This document shows, piece by piece, positions 7,565-24,710 of a stretch of DNA of 25,029 bases (its first letter is position 1; each line of letters opens with the position of its first letter). The translations under genes and the position numbers were made by a program. Under the pieces are notes generated by a model. The model saw nothing but the letters and a program-made list of their open reading frames with translations, did no database searches and was not told where the DNA came from. Source of the stretch: a virus; the IMG/VR virus record IMGVR_UViG_3300032731_001196, positions 1 to 25,029 of that record; one strand, written 5' to 3'.

Positions 7565-7717
7565 ATGGCACAAAGAACAAGAGAGGTTATCATGGCCGAG
7601 GTCGCAGCAGCCGAGGGTGAGATCGCCTGTGTCGTGGCCATGGATACACTGGAGATCCTGCTTGATTGCAGAGATATCCTAACCGACATTAAAACGAATA
7701 CGCAGCCATCACCATGA
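7565..7717 (+). CDS. Very small hypothetical protein
   Basis: 50 residues: MAQRTREVIMAEVAAAEG, then EIACVVAMDTLEILLDCRD and ILTDIKTNTQPSP. GGGAG lies seven bases before the ATG. The stop overlaps the next ATG as ATGA, and the start follows the previous stop by one base. The context therefore supports it as a real gene despite its length. It is almost entirely helical with hydrophobic i/i+3/i+4 positions, so it is probably a short coiled coil; function unknown. Confidence 0.6.
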   Translation: MAQRTREVIMAEVAAAEGEIACVVAMDTLEILLDCRDILTDIKTNTQPSP

Positions 7718-8097
7718 GACAATACAGCCAAGCAGATCTTCGAAAGTATGGAGGGATCACCATTCCTCTTTTTGAAAGCCAGCTCGTCACTGTCTCCGGA
7801 AATTCAAATGCCGACCCTGTCAATGTTCTTCCATTCTCCAAGGGCCTGTTCTTCCTTCGCTGCACCCAAATGGCCGGCGGTGGATCTGAGGAGCTTGACG
7901 TCGTTATCCAAACAAAGGATCCGGAAGGAGAGTATTGGTTCAACCTTACAGCATTTTGGCCTATCCTCACTGGAACCGGAGGAAGGATTAAGACGCCGTT
8001 TATGATACCTATCCTTGGGGAGAAATTAAGTATTGCCTACGACTTGACGGATATCACCTCAGTTACATTTTCCGTCCAAGCGGTGTTGAAGATATAG
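7714..8097 (+). CDS. Beta-rich virion protein, paralogue A
   Basis: 127 residues, paralogous to the protein at 13721-14101. Shared landmarks in order are M-x-QY...L-KYGG at the N-terminus, SGN, an FFL strand followed by GG, DV, P-x-G-x-Y, a late LS-A strand, S-V-x-F-x-V and a final KI. The pattern of alternating hydrophobics suggests a beta sandwich. Its twin lies just after the major capsid gene, so both are probably capsid decoration, head-completion or neck proteins. No clear Shine-Dalgarno site; translation is likely coupled through the ATGA overlap with the upstream small gene. Confidence 0.7.
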   Translation: MRQYSQADLRKYGGITIPLFESQLVTVSGNSNADPVNVLPFSKGLFFLRCTQMAGGGSEELDVVIQTKDPEGEYWFNLTAFWPILTGTGGRIKTPFMIPILGEKLSIAYDLTDITSVTFSVQAVLKI

Positions 8098-13294: not shown

Positions 13295-13724
13295 TAAAGG
13301 TACGCTCGGAGAAAAAACGGCCGAGAAGCCAACTGTGCCCAGGTATTTCCTGGATGAGCTGGTCTTGGTCGATCCCAGGCTTAAAGTCCTGTGGCATCCA
13401 AAGGCAAAAAGGTTTCTGATCGTCAGCCCTGCTCCTCAGAAGATGTTCAAAAAAGGATATGTGGTTGAGATGGTTGTGGATGACGGTGCCGGAAACTATG
13501 CGCCTTGTGATCGCAGGGCCCTGGGAAAGCTCCTTGAGCTCAAGTATGACAGAGACAAAAACTTCAAACCGGAAAGGTTCCTTAGGGAAATGGATGGTGA
13601 GGAGACCGACAAGGCTGTAAAAGCTGAAGTCAAAAAACGTCTCATGACAAGAGAATTCATGCTCAAGGTAAACAAATTTCTTCGAACAAAGACTTTTGTA
13701 TTGAACGGAGGTAAAAACAAATGA
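13284..13724 (+). CDS. Hypothetical head-module protein
   Basis: 146 residues; the start lies 11 bases inside the capsid gene. The core is beta-rich: YFLDELVLVDPRLKVLWHPK, AKRFLIVSP, GYVVEMVVDDGAGNYAPCD, then a Lys-rich helical C-terminus (DRDKNFKPERFLREMDGEET, AEVKKRLMTREFMLKVN). It is not recognised with certainty. Its place between capsid and decoration-type genes, and the overlaps on both sides (11 bases and ATGA), argue for a role in the head or connector. Confidence 0.65.
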   Translation: MNPNKGTLGEKTAEKPTVPRYFLDELVLVDPRLKVLWHPKAKRFLIVSPAPQKMFKKGYVVEMVVDDGAGNYAPCDRRALGKLLELKYDRDKNFKPERFLREMDGEETDKAVKAEVKKRLMTREFMLKVNKFLRTKTFVLNGGKNK

Positions 13725-14101
13725 CTCAATACAACTCGAAAGAACTGGAAAAATATGGGGGAAAAAAGATCCTGATGTTTAGTGGGACGGTAACTGCCTC
13801 AGGCAACAATCGAACCAATACATCGTACCCTATCATTAACGCCATGCAGTTTAAGGAAGCATCATTCTTCCTGAACGCGTCGGCCGTTGGTGGGGCAGGG
13901 ACCTTTGATCTCGACGTGGAAAGCAAAAATCCAGCAGGGGATTATTATTCAACCCTTGCGTCCTTTACGCAGCTTGCAGCGATCGGTCATGAAAAGATTA
14001 ACGTCGCTGCCAATCTCGGATCGGACCTCTCTCTTGCTTGGACCGTTGTCACTTTCACGTCTGTTGTTTTCACGGTCTACGGAATTTTCAAAATTAGATA
14101 A
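13721..14101 (+). CDS. Beta-rich virion protein, paralogue B
   Basis: 126 residues, twin of the protein at 7714-8097. It has the same N-terminal M-x-QY and KYGG, an early SGN, the FFL strand followed by GG, DLDVESKNPAGDYY matching LDVVIQTKDPEGEYW, and the end S-V-x-F-T-V then KI. GGAGG stands nine bases before ATG. Being directly after the capsid gene, it is a good candidate for capsid decoration or a neck collar. A hairpin follows the stop, so the MCP group may end here in some transcripts. Confidence 0.7.
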   Translation: MTQYNSKELEKYGGKKILMFSGTVTASGNNRTNTSYPIINAMQFKEASFFLNASAVGGAGTFDLDVESKNPAGDYYSTLASFTQLAAIGHEKINVAANLGSDLSLAWTVVTFTSVVFTVYGIFKIR

Positions 14102-15642: not shown

Positions 15643-15672
15643 CATGGGGGGCCCTTCGGGGCCCCTTCCATG
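15643..15672 (+). terminator. UUCG-tetraloop hairpin
   Basis: CATGG-GGGGCCC-TTCG-GGGCCCC-TT-CCATG: a 7-bp GC stem with the very stable UUCG loop, extended by a 5-bp outer stem past a two-base bulge. It lies between the small tail-module gene and the adaptor gene. No U-run follows, so it may stop or pause transcription or block exonucleases. Its 3' arm contains the ATG at 15670, which argues against that ATG as a translation start. Confidence 0.6.
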
Positions 15673-15687
15673 CTCCTGGAGGATCAC

Positions 15688-16701
15688 ATGAATAGACTAG
15701 AAATTAGAGATCAGATCCGGATCCTTGCAGACGAGCTCACACAAGCTCCTCTCGGACTCTGGACTGACACACAGCTTAATAATATTATCAACCGCGCTCA
15801 GGAAAAACTTATGATGGCGCTGATTGATACAGTCCCATGGTACTTCCGGAAAGAAGTTGACATCTCTCTTGTTATTAACCAGAGGGAATACAATATCTCT
15901 TCGGATCTTGGCCTCGATGGAAACATCGTCATTACCACAGCAAACCAAAATCTCGACTTTGATGAGGGAGGTGGGGCGCTTTTGGCCACGATCGTTGCCG
16001 GCACCTATACTCCAACGACACTCTGCACAGAGATTAAAACCCGACTGGATGCTGCCGGCGCTCTCACCTATACGGTCACATACTCCGGAAAGGTCTTCAG
16101 GATTTCATCCACCGCAGGGACGATGAATCTCGATTGCCTTACTGGGGCAAATATCGCCACTGGAATTTGGGCAACAATCGGATTTGCAGCAGTAGACAGG
16201 ACCGGTTTTATAAATTATGCCGGCGACTATTCCATCGATGTGCAGAACTTTCTCATGTTCGAATCAATCCTGCAGCAGAACGCTGGAGACAAACCGGTTC
16301 CCTTAATCTACCTGAATCCAACAGACAATTTCCTTCATGAAACAATGGGTCAAACTGCAGCTCCGGCCGACGTGAGAATGTGGGGATACAAAGACTTCGA
16401 TGAGATCTATGTTGTTCCTACGCCGAACGCCAACGCAGCAAGCCAGCTCCTGGGATACTACTTCCGGAAGACGGCAAACCTCACAGTGGATACAGACTCG
16501 CCGGCGCTGCCTTGGTCAGCCCATGATCTGCTCTGTTACTATGTGCTGAAGTATTGGTACCTGAGAGATGGAGATAAAGGCGCAGCCACAGTGAATACTC
16601 TTTACACTGAAGAGTTGACAAATGTTGCCATGAAAATGAGTAATCCACAGGGACCAACACCTGGGAAGAGGCCGTCAGTTAGAACACTCGCACAGTCATA
16701 G
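15688..16701 (+). CDS. Head-tail adaptor / neck protein with inserted domain
   Basis: 337 residues from MNRLEIRD, preceded by GGAGG; an upstream ATG at 15670 is inside the UUCG hairpin. The ends resemble T7 gp11/P22 gp4-type adaptors: an N-terminal helical part (IRILADELTQAPLGLWTDTQ, LNNIINRAQEKLMMALID), a beta part (VPWYFRKEVDISLVINQREY) and late segments (MWGYKDFDEIYVVPTPN, LPWSAHDLLCYYVLKYWYLR). Residues 80-173 are an insertion that closely matches residues 509-613 of the next gene. The protein should sit under the portal ring and receive the tail hub encoded downstream. Confidence 0.75.
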   Translation: MNRLEIRDQIRILADELTQAPLGLWTDTQLNNIINRAQEKLMMALIDTVPWYFRKEVDISLVINQREYNISSDLGLDGNIVITTANQNLDFDEGGGALLATIVAGTYTPTTLCTEIKTRLDAAGALTYTVTYSGKVFRISSTAGTMNLDCLTGANIATGIWATIGFAAVDRTGFINYAGDYSIDVQNFLMFESILQQNAGDKPVPLIYLNPTDNFLHETMGQTAAPADVRMWGYKDFDEIYVVPTPNANAASQLLGYYFRKTANLTVDTDSPALPWSAHDLLCYYVLKYWYLRDGDKGAATVNTLYTEELTNVAMKMSNPQGPTPGKRPSVRTLAQS

Positions 16702-16717: not shown

Positions 16718-19700
16718 ATGGCATTTGAGAAGAACAAACTACCCATCTGGAATCTGGCCGGCACGTTAAACGAGCTGGATCCTCCATCCGAAGTCCCTCT
16801 TCCGGATGTGATCAGCGTCAATAATTGGAAGCCAGACAGGGATGGGAAATCCAGAATAAAAAGACCTGGTTATGACAAGCTGGACGCTGCCTATGCGTCC
16901 TTCAATGAGCCTATCCGTGGGATCTTTAAGTATGTGGATCCGGATGGCACTGAGGTTATAGTCATTGTCACCAGAACTGGAGTTGTTGTTCGTAAAGATG
17001 TCTATACCTGGACGAGGGTGCTGCATGATGAGGACACGTTTTATGACATAAGGTTTAATGGGTTTCTTTATCAGGGGGATATGTGTCACTTTCATGAAGC
17101 ATCGGCGACTACAGTCGGGCTCATGAAGACCAGCGACGGAGTGACGTGGTCAACTCTGGCCACATACACCCCAACGGTTCCTCCAAATACAACCATGAAC
17201 TGCCCGACTCCGATTGTCTATGCCGACGAGATTTTTACTGGACTTCGGGCAACCAATATCGGGGATCCTCTTGTTACTAGATATGATGGAACTTTTCATG
17301 AGGAGCTTGTTTCTCCGATCGCTGGTGGATATTGTGTGGCCTTTCATTTGTGGGACGGAAAGCTCTGGATCCTCTTATATGGCACTACTACATATCGGGT
17401 TTACAGTTATGATGGAAATGCCTATAGTTTGATTGCAAATTATGATGGGGCTGGAACTATTCCCACAAATTCCATCAATGTTTACGCCTCAGCATGCCGT
17501 GGTAGAGTGGCGCATTTCATTACGAAGGACAATAATCTTCACCTCGCTGTGACCCTAAAGGACGGAGGAGGAAAACATACCTGGGAGATGTATCAATTTA
17601 ACCCGACTCTTTATGACAGGTTTAATAAAATCTACGATAGTTCAGGGATCGATGATTATGGAATATGTGGGATATATAACTACAATGGAAAATGGTGGGC
17701 CCTTACGACAAAACTAACAGTGGCTGCAGATTACGCTCCAGACGGAAACGACAATGAGCTTTATTCCTCTACGGATCTAATTACTTGGACTTTAGAGAAA
17801 ACGGGATTGGCCATGGGATTGACAGAGGGCGTGAATTCTTATGATGGGAAGCTCTTTGTTTCCTCTTACTTTGATTACGCTGCAGCAAGGACTTATAAGA
17901 TTTGGTATTGGGATTCTTCGCTTGAAAATTTTGTCAATGAAATAAATATCGCCACCAATATTGCAAACCCACCATCTACACACGGAAACCTTCTTGAGTT
18001 CAATGGAGAGCTTTATGCTTTCAAGTACAGGGAGATCCACGTAAGAGAGATCACGACAAATTCCTACACGACAATCTATTCAACAAGTGAAGAGATCCTC
18101 ATGTCTGTCGCTGCAGGATCTGTAGATGACGGCCGGCTGACGCTGGCCCTGGATGAGATGGTGACACTGGAGGGGGATACCGTCTACAGCCTTGGTCTTC
18201 ATGCACCGGTACAAGCTCCGGATCTGGCCCCCTATGCCAGCATTGTCATAGGTGCGACAAATAACAAGATCGACTTCGAAGAGACGGCCGGCGTACAACT
18301 GACGGCCACTCTCACAAACGCCACATATCTTCCTGCAGCCATGGCAGCAGAGATAAAAATTCAGCTCGATGCAACCGGCGCCTCCGTTTACACGGTGACT
18401 TATGAAGACGACTATACCTTTAAGATCGTCTCTGATGGTCTTGGTGGTGGGGGAATCTTCAGTCTTCTTTGTGCCTCCGGTACCACTTCAAGCGGAGCGT
18501 ACGCAATCTTGGGATTTTCTGTAAACTTTGATCTGACAGGATCCTTGACGGTCATCTCAGAGCCATGGGGCCTCATAGGTCTTCGTAAATACGTTGTTAC
18601 CTTCCAGAGATCCGGAAACTATCCTGTAGAAAGCAATCCATCTCCAGAATCTATACAAGTAAATCCTCTTGGAGGGATAATTGACATATCGAATATCCCT
18701 GTTTCTCCGGATCCGAAGGTAAATGCCAGGAGGATCTACGCGACGACGGCCGGAGGAGAAAGATTTTACTGGATGGCCGATATCGCCGACAACGCCACAA
18801 CTACATATCGAGACGAGATCGATGACAACACCCTACTCGGTGGAACTGAGGTGAGTTACGATCGAGGCGTTCCTCCGATTGGTCCATACATGGAAGTTTG
18901 GGACAATAGAATGTGGATCGCCGGTGTTGAAGGATTTGAAAATTATCTCTACCGTACAAATTTAGGCACTTCCGAAGAGATGGCCGATGCAAATTTCATA
19001 CCGGTAAAAGCCAGGGAAAGCGACAAGATAAAACAGATCAAAGCCTTTGGTGATAAGCTCTACGTTTGGAAAGCAAATTCTTTATTTGGCCTATCAAAGG
19101 TGGGGGGCTCCCTCTATGAGCTGGAGCAGATCCCTCAAAACATCGGGACCGATTCTCCATGGTCCGTCCAGGTCTGTGATAAGTTCTTGATATGGAAGTC
19201 AGCTTTCGGAGTTGAGGTTTTTAACGGCAATTCCTGTTTCCGGCCGATAGTATCAGATCTCGTTCAAGTGACATTGGCCACAATAAATCCGGAAGCTCTT
19301 AATAAAATTGTCGGTGGCCATAACTTTGATGATGGTGAGTATTGGATGGCCATTCCAACAGGATCTAACACAGAGCCGGACACAGTTGTGGTTTATAACT
19401 ACATGAAACGGTGGTTTACCATTTACACATTTCCGGAAGATCTTACTTTCCTCATGAGCACAAAGACAAAGGTAGAGGGCCTGATGTTTCTCACCGGTAC
19501 GGCCGAAGGAAATGTTTATATTCAAGGATCCGGATTCGATGATGATGGTGCAGCGATCAGCTCTCACTTCCAAATGGGCTGGTTTAATATGATCTCACAA
19601 AAAGAGCTGGCCAATGTGATCCGGAGAATGTTTATCAAATATCAGCTCCCCACTGGGATGACTTTGACTTGTGATATATTCGCAGACATGGCAAAAACAG

Positions 19701-19915
19701 CGATTGCGACGTGTACTTTCACTGGAATGACTCCTACTACAATCCCTACTCTTCGAAATGATATTGTTGCCAGGCAGAATCTCAGGATCCCTGGTACCTA
19801 TGCGAGTTTTAAATTCACAAACAATGAGATCACAGGTGGAGAGGTCAAGGTCGTTGGCTTTGATCTTTATTTTAATCGAGATCTTAAATGGAATTACGGT
19901 GTTAAGGCAGACTAA
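16718..19915 (+). CDS. Tail hub / stabiliser protein (gp12- or gp10-like)
   Basis: 1065 residues. The protein is beta-rich throughout, with repeated W/Y-containing strands like a beta propeller: DGVTWSTLATYTP, YDGKLFVSSYFDYA, EVWDNRMWIAGVEG, FGDKLYVWKANSLFGLS, FDDGEYWMAIPTGS, YNYMKRWFTIYTF. Such architecture is typical of podovirus tail tube B/stabiliser proteins (T7 gp12, P22 gp10), and the position after the adaptor agrees. The N-terminus (PDVISVNNWKPDRDGKSRIK, RPGY) is characteristic. Residues 509-613 carry the domain also found in the adaptor. No signal peptide or membrane helix. The stop overlaps the next start as TAATG. Confidence 0.78.
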   Translation: MAFEKNKLPIWNLAGTLNELDPPSEVPLPDVISVNNWKPDRDGKSRIKRPGYDKLDAAYASFNEPIRGIFKYVDPDGTEVIVIVTRTGVVVRKDVYTWTRVLHDEDTFYDIRFNGFLYQGDMCHFHEASATTVGLMKTSDGVTWSTLATYTPTVPPNTTMNCPTPIVYADEIFTGLRATNIGDPLVTRYDGTFHEELVSPIAGGYCVAFHLWDGKLWILLYGTTTYRVYSYDGNAYSLIANYDGAGTIPTNSINVYASACRGRVAHFITKDNNLHLAVTLKDGGGKHTWEMYQFNPTLYDRFNKIYDSSGIDDYGICGIYNYNGKWWALTTKLTVAADYAPDGNDNELYSSTDLITWTLEKTGLAMGLTEGVNSYDGKLFVSSYFDYAAARTYKIWYWDSSLENFVNEINIATNIANPPSTHGNLLEFNGELYAFKYREIHVREITTNSYTTIYSTSEEILMSVAAGSVDDGRLTLALDEMVTLEGDTVYSLGLHAPVQAPDLAPYASIVIGATNNKIDFEETAGVQLTATLTNATYLPAAMAAEIKIQLDATGASVYTVTYEDDYTFKIVSDGLGGGGIFSLLCASGTTSSGAYAILGFSVNFDLTGSLTVISEPWGLIGLRKYVVTFQRSGNYPVESNPSPESIQVNPLGGIIDISNIPVSPDPKVNARRIYATTAGGERFYWMADIADNATTTYRDEIDDNTLLGGTEVSYDRGVPPIGPYMEVWDNRMWIAGVEGFENYLYRTNLGTSEEMADANFIPVKARESDKIKQIKAFGDKLYVWKANSLFGLSKVGGSLYELEQIPQNIGTDSPWSVQVCDKFLIWKSAFGVEVFNGNSCFRPIVSDLVQVTLATINPEALNKIVGGHNFDDGEYWMAIPTGSNTEPDTVVVYNYMKRWFTIYTFPEDLTFLMSTKTKVEGLMFLTGTAEGNVYIQGSGFDDDGAAISSHFQMGWFNMISQKELANVIRRMFIKYQLPTGMTLTCDIFADMAKTAIATCTFTGMTPTTIPTLRNDIVARQNLRIPGTYASFKFTNNEITGGEVKVVGFDLYFNRDLKWNYGVKAD

Positions 19916-20334: not shown

Positions 20335-21165
20335 ATGGGAATGATTAGAGTCGTAAGATGCACGAACGCCGAAAGATTGGCCTATGGTGGGATAGAAGAG
20401 GGCAGGTTTTTCTATTGCACAGACACAGAACTAATGTGGATGGGAACTGGATCCGGAGACACGCAGGTCGGAGCTGCACCAAGTACATATACATTTTGGG
20501 ATCCCGACGCGCTTCCTGCTGTACCGTCTGCCCAGGACGATCACTTTGATGATGCTGCCGTGGACGTAAAATGGACAGAATGGGACTTAGGTGTTCCACA
20601 GTTGGTAATTACTGAAGCTGGTCATCATGCAATTCTTACCCACTCAACTGAAGCAGCAGGAAGATGGAGAGGTATGTATCAGACTTTGCCGGCTGGTAAT
20701 TTTACTATTGCAACAAAAGCCTCACTAATAGGAACGCACAGTGGAGACAACGCTGTTGCTTTGGCGCTTTTTGAAGATGCCACGGCAGCAGCTGGTGATA
20801 TTTTGATATGGATGCTTTATTCCAGAACATCAGGGAATAAGTATAGAGATTTATTTGCACAAAGATGGTCAGCCTATGATACTTTTAGTTCAAATTATGG
20901 TGGCGGAACTATGTATCCAAACACGACTACATATCTTAGAATAAGAAGAGTAACTACCGATTTGTATTGGGAGTATAGTTGCGATGGAGTGAGTTGGACC
21001 AGGCTCTATACAGCAGTCCAGCCGTTTGCTCCAGCCCACATGGGGATCATCACGATGAACAACAACATTGGCATTGACGTTTATGGTTATTTTGATTTTT
21101 TTAGATATATTGCGAGTGATCAAATCGGACCACTAGGAAAAGTCAGGACGGCCCATGTAGACTAG
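20335..21165 (+). CDS. Tail fibre with ConA-like jelly-roll domain
   Basis: 276 residues. The head (residues 1-45) has RVVRCTNAERLAYGGIEEGR and FFYCTDTELMWMGTGS, a module seen at the start of many phage fibre proteins. Residues 70-262 look like a concanavalin-A/laminin-G jelly roll: DDHFDDAAVDVKWTEWDLG, TYLRIRRVTTDLYWEYSCDG, VSWTRLY and GYFDFFRYIAS, the last being the conserved closing strand. Such domains bind glycans, so this may be the receptor-binding part. The domain region is AT-richer than its neighbours and lacks the GATCCGG words common elsewhere, suggesting acquired DNA. GGAG precedes the ATG. Confidence 0.68.
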   Translation: MGMIRVVRCTNAERLAYGGIEEGRFFYCTDTELMWMGTGSGDTQVGAAPSTYTFWDPDALPAVPSAQDDHFDDAAVDVKWTEWDLGVPQLVITEAGHHAILTHSTEAAGRWRGMYQTLPAGNFTIATKASLIGTHSGDNAVALALFEDATAAAGDILIWMLYSRTSGNKYRDLFAQRWSAYDTFSSNYGGGTMYPNTTTYLRIRRVTTDLYWEYSCDGVSWTRLYTAVQPFAPAHMGIITMNNNIGIDVYGYFDFFRYIASDQIGPLGKVRTAHVD

Positions 21166-21174
21166 AGGAAATAA

Positions 21175-21804
21175 ATGTTAAAAGATTTTCATTATTATAC
21201 GCAGCAAGAGATCGATGATCTTCTCCATCGGTGGGATGATCTTAGGGTGCCTCTTTCATCCGTCAAAGCCGGTGGGGTAAAGGATCCAACTTTTTTAAAC
21301 TGGAAAACAGACGGTGCCGGATCCCGAGGCGTTTATGATTGGCATTTTGCTCACCAGGCTGTCGCTGCAAACGAAGAGGAAGTATTTTTTAATGCTCAAT
21401 TACCACACAGTTACGAAGAGGGCACCGATCTTCACTTTCACCTTCATTGGACACCGCTTGTAAGTGGCGCTGCTGGTCAGTTTGTTAAGTTTGGATTGGA
21501 GTATGTTTGGGTAAATATAAATGGTACCTTTCCAGCCAATACAACGATCATTACTTCAGATGCCTCAGCAGCAGCAGCAGCAACCACATCAGGAGATGGG
21601 ACTCTAGTACACGGAAAACATTACAAGACAGCGTTTCCTGATATTTCAGGAGCAGGAAAGACAATCTCCAGTATGTTATCATGTAGATTTTTTAGGAATT
21701 CGTCACACGCGAATGATACTTTAATTCAAGACGCGATTGTCTTTGAAGTAGATTTCCACTTTAGGAAAGATTCGATAGGATCAAGAGAAGAACTTGTAAA
21801 ATAA
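21175..21804 (+). CDS. Conserved tail-fibre-type protein
   Basis: 209 residues. It starts with HYYTQQEIDDLLHRWDDLRV, the fibre-linker motif shared with the protein at 19915. Next comes a beta-rich body with landmarks of a phage protein family I recall from several podovirus and siphovirus tail modules: EEVFFNAQLPHSYEEGTDLH, FHLHWTP, a FGLEYVWVN strand and ISSMLSCRFFR. An Ala/Ser-rich stretch (TSDASAAAAATTSGDG) may be a flexible loop. It ends GSREELVK. Role probably virion surface; no enzyme motif. AGGAAATAA precedes the ATG. Confidence 0.62.
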   Translation: MLKDFHYYTQQEIDDLLHRWDDLRVPLSSVKAGGVKDPTFLNWKTDGAGSRGVYDWHFAHQAVAANEEEVFFNAQLPHSYEEGTDLHFHLHWTPLVSGAAGQFVKFGLEYVWVNINGTFPANTTIITSDASAAAAATTSGDGTLVHGKHYKTAFPDISGAGKTISSMLSCRFFRNSSHANDTLIQDAIVFEVDFHFRKDSIGSREELVK

Positions 21805-21815
21805 CGGAGGATAAT

Positions 21816-22214
21816 ATGTCACCATTACCAGCATTAGGATTAGGAGCAGGAACGGCTGCTGCAGGGATAGGCTCGTCTATCGCAACCGGAGGTATTCCGC
21901 TTCCCATCATCCTTGCGATCGTTGGGTCTTTGTTTGGAGATATCTTTGGAAAAAAAGAGGATCCCCTTTCAGATGCCCTGGATCTCAAGTCTCAGATGAA
22001 CACATTGGGCATGAAGCCACCATTCCAAAGTCCCTACATGCCCATGATGGACAAGACTATGGTCCAGGCCCTATTGAATCAGATGGGCAGGTCTGCAAAT
22101 TTTGGATGGCCCGAGGGAGCACAGATGGATACGAGCTTCATAGACAACGCCCTGGCACAGAGTTTTCCGCAGCCAGGCGCTGGAGGTATGAGGAGAATAG
22201 TAAGACAAGGATAG
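21816..22214 (+). CDS. Glycine-rich membrane-active virion protein
   Basis: 132 residues. Residues 5-45 are hydrophobic with small residues at regular spacing (LGAGTAAAGIGSSIATGG, then IPLPIILAIVGSLFGDIFG), a glycine-zipper type membrane-inserting segment. The C-terminal part is Met/Pro/Gln-rich (MKPPFQSPYMPMMD) with a short helix, and ends RRIVRQG. The location in the internal-protein cluster suggests a DNA-ejection or membrane-penetration protein. A holin is the main alternative, but no endolysin is next to it. GGAGG precedes the ATG. Confidence 0.6.
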   Translation: MSPLPALGLGAGTAAAGIGSSIATGGIPLPIILAIVGSLFGDIFGKKEDPLSDALDLKSQMNTLGMKPPFQSPYMPMMDKTMVQALLNQMGRSANFGWPEGAQMDTSFIDNALAQSFPQPGAGGMRRIVRQG

Positions 22215-22223
22215 GAGGCTTTT

Positions 22224-23732
22224 ATGGCCGATGATGTAACCAAAGTATATTGTTGTAAAAAATGGGAGAATGGAGTGCTGAAGAAGTACATGTCTCCACG
22301 GATGTGTAAGGGAGATGCTGTCTTATGCTCTGCTGCAGATCCCCCGAATCCAGACGAGGAGGGTGGTGGTGATGGTCAAGTCCACTGTTGCAAGAAATGG
22401 ATCAATGGGGTACTGAAGAAATTTAACAGCCCGACTCCATGCTCCGGAACTGCAGTTAAGTGCAGCGATCCGGATCCTCCAAAACCTCCGATCGTTGACC
22501 AAAAAGACTGTGAAGAGAAGTGTCATAGTAACCAGCAGTATCTTCTTCTGAAGGGACCAAAACCTGCAGAGGCAGCAGCCATGCTGAAGGCATGTCTCGA
22601 TAAATGTCAAGGGATTGAGACAACAGCTCCGTGTACCGGAGGAGTAAAGAGAGTAGACGCCACCTGTCCAACAGGATTTCATTCGAAAAAAGATGAGGCA
22701 AGTGGGGTGTGGTATTGCTGTCCAGACTCAGATCCCCTGAAACCTTGTGGTGAGAAGGAAGGGTACGAGCTGCAGGGAACCGGACTCCAGAAATGTAATG
22801 AAGGGTACACTCTGACAAGATCTTCTGATGGGAAAAATTGGTGCTGTAAGGACGATACCGTAACTCCTGGTGGTAATCCCTGTGACGAAGGTGGATATCA
22901 ACTCACCCAGGAAAATGGGTTTGCTGGTGGAGTCGGAGAAGGACAGTCGCCATGGGCAGAGATCCCAGGCACAACCAGGTCCGGAGATTGGGAAGGCCAC
23001 TATGTATGGAACGCGGAGAAGGGTAAATATGTAAACATCCAGACTCCGGACATCGGAGTAGACCTTGTCTGTAAAAAAGGATGGTTAAGAAAATCAGACA
23101 GCGAAGGTGGAATATGGTGCTGTCCCGATCCAAATGGTGACGACGATGGTGATGGAGATGATCTCGGGGAATTCAAATGGGATGAAGGACTTCAGGCACT
23201 ACTTGGCAGGATCCAGGATAGAGCAAACGAGCTGCTTGATTATCCCAGGGGCCTGAGACCTGAGGAGCGCCAGGCTGTAATAAATTATGCGATCGAGGGG
23301 GTTAAGGCTGGAGAGGCTGGAGAGAAACAACAATCGAGAGATGAGCTTGCAAGAATGGGAATGTTAGGATCCGGATTCGAGGCAAGTGAAAGCGCCAGGA
23401 TCACAAGAGAAACCAGGCAGGAGTCCGGAGATGTCCGTCGTGAGTTGGCCATCGATGAGCTCAACAGGAGATTCGCGGAGCTCATGGGAACCACCGGCAT
23501 GGCCCAGGGATTAACCGGCACACTTATGGAAAGCCAGCAGATCCCCGAGATCCTGAGCGCCGGCCGAAGATCTGAAGGCAGCGCAGCCATGAACGCTTTT
23601 CTCCAATACCTGGGGATGGGCAATCAAGGTAGTAGTGGATATAACGAGGCAATCATGGCTCAACTCTTTCGCGGAGGCGACAAAGGTGGCGACATGAGCT
23701 GGCTCTACTATCTCCCCTACCTAATTAAATAG
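22224..23732 (+). CDS. Cys-rich repeat protein with helical C-terminus
   Basis: 502 residues in three parts. Residues 1-300 contain 24 cysteines; residues 301-502 contain none. Two tandem repeats share exact spacing (residues 8-41, VYCCKKWENGVLKKYMSP, and 53-86, VHCCKKWINGVLKKFNSP), each CC-x16-C-x6-C. A twin CX3C pair lies at 96-100 and 124-128. Then follow three units C-x2-G-[FYW]...W-x-CC at 148-166, 191-208 and 283-300. Residues 302-313 (PDPNGDDDGDGDD) resemble a calcium loop. The C-terminal helices (QDRANELLDYPRGLRPEERQ, RRELAIDELNRRFAELMGT) look like internal or tail proteins of podoviruses. Extracellular disulfide knots or metal sites seem likely. Confidence 0.72.
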   Translation: MADDVTKVYCCKKWENGVLKKYMSPRMCKGDAVLCSAADPPNPDEEGGGDGQVHCCKKWINGVLKKFNSPTPCSGTAVKCSDPDPPKPPIVDQKDCEEKCHSNQQYLLLKGPKPAEAAAMLKACLDKCQGIETTAPCTGGVKRVDATCPTGFHSKKDEASGVWYCCPDSDPLKPCGEKEGYELQGTGLQKCNEGYTLTRSSDGKNWCCKDDTVTPGGNPCDEGGYQLTQENGFAGGVGEGQSPWAEIPGTTRSGDWEGHYVWNAEKGKYVNIQTPDIGVDLVCKKGWLRKSDSEGGIWCCPDPNGDDDGDGDDLGEFKWDEGLQALLGRIQDRANELLDYPRGLRPEERQAVINYAIEGVKAGEAGEKQQSRDELARMGMLGSGFEASESARITRETRQESGDVRRELAIDELNRRFAELMGTTGMAQGLTGTLMESQQIPEILSAGRRSEGSAAMNAFLQYLGMGNQGSSGYNEAIMAQLFRGGDKGGDMSWLYYLPYLIK

Positions 23733-23741
23733 GAGACAACA

Positions 23742-24710
23742 ATGCCAATAGATCTTAAAAGCATCGGGCAGGGAGCGCAGAAATTTCTCGCACAAATGCT
23801 GCCATACATAACGCAGCAAAAGTTCCAGAAAGAAATGCTGGACTATCAGACAAAAGCATGGCTCGAGAAGTCTCTGAAAGAATATGAAGCCTATGGTGGG
23901 ATCCAGGAGAAACTTCAAAGGCAATCGCAATTAAATGCGATCTTCGGAGATCTCAGTGGAGTGATATCAAAGGGAGTGGAAGACTCTCCATATCCTGGCA
24001 TTGAATATGTCAAGAGAGGCCAGCAGCTTGGAATTCCAATGGGTGACATCCAGGCGCCGACTCCAGAAATAGAGGGAGATATGACGGCGCAATACCAGGC
24101 GGTGGCTCTGCCATTGATCATGGCCAGGCTGAGTAACCAGCAGCCGACTGAAGAGCAAGTATCAAAAGCCATCGGCATGTTTGGCCAGGACGCTGTCTAC
24201 TCGATGATAGGTGACTTCGCCGGCGACGTGACCAAGAGGAAAGAGCAGGGACTCAGAGGCAGAGAGATTGGTGTTCAAGAGCAGACTGTCCCGATCCGGA
24301 GGAAAGAGGCCGAGACTTCTGCTGGCAACCTAGACTTAGAAAGCAAGGGAGGAAAGTCATTGAAGGAAATCCAGGCAGAGATCACCAAACTTTCTAACGA
24401 ACGAGACACACAGGTCCAGAAGTCTACCGGAATAGGATCTCCATTCGGAGCTCTCACTTCTTCACAAGGGAAAGTTGTTGCAGCGAAGATCGCAAAGATC
24501 GATATGAGACTAAGGCAAATTGAAGAGCTGACCGGCCAGAAGATCCTACCTGGACAAGAAGAGTATGCCATGTTTCAGAAGATGGCCCAGGAAAACATGC
24601 AAAGAGGATTAGAAATAAATTGGGAGCAGGCCCTCATCCTTGGGTATGATATCTATTGGCTTAAAGAATTACAGGACTCTATCGGAGCACCTGGCCAGAA
24701 GAAAAAATAA
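23742..24710 (+). CDS. Helical internal virion / ejection protein (predicted)
   Basis: 322 residues, almost all helical and charged. The N-terminus has amphipathic segments (IGQGAQKFLAQMLPYITQQK, FQKEMLDYQTKAWLEKSLKE). The middle has PIRRKEAETSAGNLDLESKG and coiled-coil-like EIQAEITKLSNERDTQ. The end is EINWEQALILGYDIYWLKEL and a Lys tail. No recognised family. It follows other probable ejection proteins and overlaps the next gene as TAATG. Composition (Gln, Lys, Glu, Ala) is like T7-type internal core proteins, which enter the host with the DNA. Confidence 0.6.
   Translation: MPIDLKSIGQGAQKFLAQMLPYITQQKFQKEMLDYQTKAWLEKSLKEYEAYGGIQEKLQRQSQLNAIFGDLSGVISKGVEDSPYPGIEYVKRGQQLGIPMGDIQAPTPEIEGDMTAQYQAVALPLIMARLSNQQPTEEQVSKAIGMFGQDAVYSMIGDFAGDVTKRKEQGLRGREIGVQEQTVPIRRKEAETSAGNLDLESKGGKSLKEIQAEITKLSNERDTQVQKSTGIGSPFGALTSSQGKVVAAKIAKIDMRLRQIEELTGQKILPGQEEYAMFQKMAQENMQRGLEINWEQALILGYDIYWLKELQDSIGAPGQKKK

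Follow-up and report, generated by a model that had tools for sequence, protein, structure and literature searches.

The stretch of DNA analysed here, which we call the window, comprises a 25-kb IMG/VR virus record and encodes a large terminase, a portal, and a major capsid protein. None of its structural proteins that were scanned was recognised as the product of a tail-tube, sheath, or tape-measure gene, so the window reads as a podovirus. Its nearest sequenced phages are remote (Arthrobacter phage Jasmine, Microbacterium phage Shocker, and Cellulosimicrobium phage DS1), with capsid and portal identities of 21–27%. Near the end of the window, downstream of a likely tail nozzle gene, a GGAGG ribosome-binding site precedes the ATG of a gene encoding a 502-residue protein rich in Cys, which is flanked by two genes that are its conserved partners in relatives. 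The features discussed below are as follows.

16718..19915, + strand: 1065-residue protein, likely tail nozzle (PHROG 511 "internal virion protein" and PHROG 3287 "virion structural protein")
21816..22214, + strand: upstream 132-residue protein bearing a single strongly hydrophobic segment, a partner conserved across relatives
22224..23732, + strand: open reading frame for the 502-residue protein, an N-terminal array of four-Cys modules followed by a Cys-free helical C-terminal domain
22245..22337, + strand: module A1, CC-x16-C-x6-C, residues 8–38, predicted beta hairpin (pLDDT about 81)
22380..22472, + strand: module A2, CC-x16-C-x6-C, residues 53–83, predicted beta hairpin (pLDDT 60–75)
22500..22610, + strand: module B, CX3C-x23-CX3C, putative helical hairpin, residues 93–129, predicted helices 93–110 and 114–128 (pLDDT about 55)
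22629..22727, + strand: module C1, C-x10-C-x16-CC, residues 136–168
22743..22853, + strand: module C2, C-x15-C-x15-CC, residues 174–210
22878..23129, + strand: module C3, residues 219–302, its first two Cys separated by an insert of 62 residues
23130..23165, + strand: acidic/Gly linker, residues 303–314, variable among relatives
23166..23729, + strand: conserved Cys-free C-terminal domain of 188 residues, predicted helical with low confidence
23742..24710, + strand: downstream 322-residue Cys-free protein in the position of T7 gp15, conserved partner

Elsewhere in the window, two proteins of 126–127 residues encoded at 7714–8097 and 13721–14101 start, as judged by eye, with MRQYSQADLRKYGG and MTQYNSKELEKYGG, and look like diverged paralogs, one lying before the portal gene and the other after the capsid gene. 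Two adjacent virion proteins, of 343 residues (15670–16701) and 1065 residues (16718–19915), also seem by eye to have in common an inserted domain (NQNLDFDEGGGALLATIVAGTYTPTTLCTEIKTRLDAAGA... and NNKIDFEETAGVQLTATLTNATYLPAAMAAEIKIQLDATGA...), which seems to be duplicated or mobile.

The 502-residue protein contains 24 Cys (4.8%), all confined to residues 10–300, whereas the other counted proteins of the structural cluster contain at most 1.6%. These Cys fall into six groups, at positions 10, 11, 28, and 35; 55, 56, 73, and 80; 96, 100, 124, and 128; 137, 148, 165, and 166; 175, 191, 207, and 208; and 220, 283, 299, and 300. All 24 are thereby assigned to four-Cys modules with none left over: two CC-x16-C-x6-C (A), one CX3C-x23-CX3C (B), and three C..C-x15/16-CC (C). 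When 24 Cys were placed at random in 310 positions, two A repeats were not obtained in any of 20,000 placements. An earlier note made from the sequence alone had already described this layout correctly, including the coordinates of the protein, its 24 Cys, and the two exact A repeats, which we find to begin at residues 10 and 55. The twin CX3C pairs it reported are found at 96 and 124, and the three C...W-CC units take the forms W-Y-CC, W-CC, and W-CC. A2 is 57–59% identical to A1, and synonymous sites are saturated between the two copies, which indicates that the duplication is old. This saturation, together with a second IMG/VR contig that is 99.9% identical across 6,988 bases including the gene, rules out an assembly duplication as the source of the repeats. 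Within C3, the insert contains a conserved WAEIPGTxRSGxWEGHxVW stretch, and the module is 70% identical to its counterpart in the relative G002, above the remaining B and C modules. The proposal that the acidic DPNGDDDGDGDD after the array is a calcium-type loop had to be abandoned since relatives carry GGGGGGGGS, GDEDGNGDGNGG, EVGTEETKQG, and others there; this stretch is a flexible variable linker and no conserved loop.

Structure prediction, which the earlier note had proposed for this region, was run on residues 1–312 and gave low AlphaFold confidence, with a pLDDT of 57 (45 for the full-length protein) and with the A hairpins and B helices predicted as listed above. The C-terminal domain was modelled as helices throughout, at a pLDDT of 30–45, and the Cys-free, mostly helical domain expected after the array thus matches both sequence and model, with the helix prediction of low confidence. 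Foldseek found no significant match in the PDB (best E 0.48), and its matches to a spider toxin, an avian defensin, and follistatin (E 0.6–4.7) carry no weight. Likewise, the repeat-by-repeat profile search that had been proposed, run for each module against PDB profiles, returned matches at chance level only. Searches of Pfam, PHROGs, and NCBIfam with the whole protein gave zero matches. A known Cys-rich family accounting for all units would have spoken against the earlier reading, and no confident match of this kind was found.

How widespread and variable is this architecture? The family comprises 11 proteins, the window protein and ten IMG/VR relatives. No real relative of the window protein was found by tblastn against 50,697 phage records, and two scans of bacterial and archaeal genomes with capsid and C-terminal profiles found none either, hence there is no prophage or host link. 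Nine members bear Cys, with counts of 24, 20, 20, 12, 20, 24, 12, 10, and 14 (the last in a partial protein). The number is even in 9/9, which parity alone would produce about once in 500, a figure to be read in the light of the members being related and one being cut short. Strict module counting covered four proteins: the window protein (2A+1B+3C, 24 Cys), G002 (1A+2B+2C, 20 Cys), G006 (1A+1B+3C, 20 Cys), and G007 (1B+2C, 12 Cys). Among the farther members, G012 has 20 Cys, G010 has 24, L071 has 12, L074 has 10, and G013 has 14 in a contig-end fragment reaching into the C-terminal domain; not all of these Cys are assigned to modules. The CX3C-xn-CX3C motif is found in 11 copies across the nine proteins, at least one in every Cys-bearing member, and G010 carries in the array slot two C-x5-C-x5-C-x4-C modules that are DUF7107/Dickkopf-like. 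The two Cys-free members, G004 (199 residues) and G009 (223 residues), consist of the C-terminal domain almost alone. The tree of this core domain places G009 beside G007, which bears Cys, with 96/95 support, and loss of the array is therefore the simplest account of G009, while the placement of G004 is unsure and does not distinguish loss from never having had an array.

The modules and the core have diverged to different extents. Core-domain identity is 78% with G002 and 34–43% with many far members. The B and C1/C2 modules are far more diverged than the core (34–45% versus 69–80%), and module B is only 21% identical to that of G006; the Cys of these modules are nonetheless kept. For the C-terminal domain, and for each module with an estimable dS, the dN/dS ratio lies below 0.5. 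On these comparisons, the N terminus is an optional, reshuffled array whose modules have been duplicated, swapped, or lost among relatives.

The neighbourhood of the gene is conserved. In relatives, the order is a 132-residue protein, the array protein, a protein of about 320 residues, a giant protein of 1,485–1,946 residues (seen in G002, G004, G006, G007, and G009; the window ends before it), and an endolysin, with Amidase_3 following the giant gene in G007 and Amidase_2 in G004. In T7, the corresponding stretch reads genes 13 (138 residues), 14 (196 residues), 15 (747 residues), and 16 (1318 residues). Clustering of gp14-like, gp15-like, and larger gp16-like genes is a feature of podoviruses, in which gp14/gp7-like ejection proteins range from 181 to 240 residues (PMC8954989), and T7 gp14 exits the head to build a channel across the outer membrane (PMC11784390). 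The array protein lies after the likely tail nozzle and ahead of the gp15-like and giant gp16-like genes, and its 188-residue domain falls within this size range, as do G004 and G009. It thus resembles T7 gp14 and P22 gp7 in operon place and in a predicted helical core of about 190–220 residues, but differs in showing no detectable homology, in a core without transmembrane segments, and in the Cys-rich N-terminal extension of 9 of the 11 family members. The earlier assignment to a virion or ejection module is therefore supported by gene order, core size, and the giant downstream gene in relatives, and the C-terminal domain of about 190 residues is probably the conserved, virion-borne part.

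Direct tests of homology for the core were negative. With hhalign, T7 gp14 (2.2%), P22 gp7 (0.3%), and the syntenic Jasmine gp26 and Shocker gp35 all gave probabilities of at most 2.2%. The profile score of T7 gp14 was 21.0, compared to a maximum of 18.4 for 200 gp14 shuffles, but Jasmine gp27, a control from an unrelated position, scored 25.7, so the gp14 score is no evidence of homology. The core of one relative matches PHROG 4287 "DNA ejection protein" (E 0.006), which is a hint only. By hydropathy, the sole basis of this prediction, the core has no transmembrane segment, unlike gp14-like proteins, and a transmembrane core was rejected: the Kyte–Doolittle maximum is 0.72 for the window protein and 1.08 for G004, compared to 1.31 for T7 gp14 and 2.03 for the upstream 132-residue protein. 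Since the hydrophobic segment to be expected of an outer-membrane gp14, the strongest in the module, is in the latter and not in the array protein, the two genes may divide the role of gp14 between them, and the 132-residue protein (21816–22214) may be the actual membrane-channel component.

Taken together, these findings show a real, strongly modular Cys array on a conserved ejection-operon protein from an uncultured podovirus lineage. As to its function, we tentatively favour, at somewhat short of an even chance, the reading that the protein belongs to the ejection module and that its N-terminal array, stapled by disulfides, works within the envelope of the host. The N-terminal 300 residues would be an accessory string of independent mini-domains with four Cys and two disulfides each, A and C being beta-hairpin modules and B an alpha-hairpinin-like helical hairpin. 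The protein would be synthesised in reduced form, become part of the virion by packaging or attachment, and be oxidised once outside the cytoplasm, either in the free particle or in the host periplasm. The stapled modules could then form a protease-resistant chain contacting the envelope, which might hold or shield the ejection channel while DNA enters, and the number and kind of modules would change by duplication, swap, and loss, as would suit a component adapted to the envelope of its host. Some relatives, however, come from partly or wholly anoxic habitats, where the array might not become oxidised outside the cell: G002 comes from an Ace Lake (Antarctica) co-assembly (3300035698; PMC8542988) and G007 from an assembly of the sulfate–methane transition zone of an estuary sediment (3300002052; PMC4411801).

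An external location is the next reading to weigh. The C-terminal domain could be anchored at the nozzle or portal, with the array projecting outside as a receptor-binding or plugging element, an adhesin or tail-tip plug that we regard as unlikely. An array that is optional and variable, like receptor-binding parts, would suit such a role, as would the C3 insert being best conserved within the array, the variable adsorption-type genes directly upstream, and the comparable modules on a cyanophage baseplate hub (see below). The place ahead of the genes for the ~320-residue and giant proteins and the small helical core nevertheless better fit an ejection protein, and no match to a fibre, collar, or beta-helix family turned up. 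The adhesin or plug and the cell-wall-penetrating spike suggested in the earlier note are thus possible roles that rank second to the ejection-module role; the window protein matched no spike or lytic family or fold in Pfam, PHROGs, NCBIfam, or Foldseek searches. Separately, we observed that the genes just 5' of the conserved 132-residue gene vary between phages (L008 3293–4243, L017 2653–3969, and window 20335–21804), much like a variable region of adsorption genes.

The usual view is that phage structural proteins fold in the reducing cytoplasm without disulfides, and the earlier note had left the array as either disulfide- or metal-rich. The first option is favoured by the even Cys counts, CC doublets, CX3C hairpins, and Gly/Pro/Asp-rich composition of the array, by the presence of only four His in residues 1–312, by the near absence of CX2C, and by two module types that resemble extracellular disulfide modules. 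We therefore infer that the array is of disulfide rather than metal nature. That the modules instead bind zinc in the cytoplasm, as a scaffold or nucleic-acid contact, strikes us as quite improbable: four Cys suit tetrahedral zinc, the protein is synthesised in a reducing compartment, and G012 and G010 have one CX2C apiece, but this motif is missing from the window protein and the six other Cys-bearing relatives, CC doublets make poor zinc knuckles, His is scarce, and family searches of the array matched no zinc-finger family. An Fe–S cluster or zinc ribbon was rejected for want of any CX2C in the window protein.

Two of the module types recall known disulfide modules. Module B has the Cys motif of alpha-hairpinins (PF14861; vicilin-buried peptides), in which the outer Cys pair with each other and the inner Cys do likewise (PMC7191063), and its two helices, predicted at a pLDDT of about 55, would give a comparable hairpin. 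It differs in being embedded in a phage protein, and the matches are below significance, with PF14861 matching the G012 copy only (E 0.044, below the cut-off) and the PDB profile search yielding an alpha-hairpinin at E 4. The two modules of G010 resemble DUF7107 (PF23416)/Dickkopf-like C-x5-C-x5-C-x4-C (E 0.0011, 19.7 bits, below the curated cut-off of 24.6), of which the window protein has none. A periplasmic effector, whose modules after ejection would inhibit proteases or target the host's envelope, its defences, or rival phages, is very improbable. In its favour, canonical trypsin inhibitors are found among alpha-hairpinins (PMC7191063), a record note has P22 gp7 cleaved by host OpdA, and the modules turn over; against it, module B is tied to alpha-hairpinins by its Cys pattern and weak sub-threshold matches only, and its inter-helix loop differs between copies. 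A bolder form of the ejection-module reading, which we consider improbable, is that a podovirus lineage fused a shuffling array of alpha-hairpinin-like and Dickkopf-like disulfide mini-domains to an ejected protein, so that oxidised modules, resistant to proteases and possibly inhibiting them, reach the host envelope along with the DNA channel.

Modules of this likely disulfide-bonded kind are unusual in phage particles. The claim that such arrays are rare in phage structural proteins needs qualifying, since the baseplate hub/tail lysozyme of Synechococcus phage S-SCSM2R (SSCSM2R_30; L067 668–3091), with 25 Cys, has three tandem C-x5-C..C-x4-C modules of disulfide type. This hub, a cell-puncturing structural protein, likewise has tandem four-Cys modules, but it belongs to another phage type, has other modules, and resembles the G010 variant only (E 0.04). 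Similar four-Cys module arrays were also seen in Cyanophage PSS2 gp084 (L068) and in an Altiarchaeum virus protein (L069 1160–2788) of 542 residues with 43 Cys and a hydrophobic segment at each end. A literature search brought up no relevant work on virion or ejection proteins of phages that are rich in Cys. The principle of Cys modules in phage cell-puncturing proteins is thus not wholly new; what is new is their combination and turnover. If the ejection-module reading is true, the array would point to a whole uncultured podovirus lineage that exploits disulfide chemistry outside the cell while delivering its DNA, and the modules that relatives have gained or lost would offer ready-made variants for comparison.
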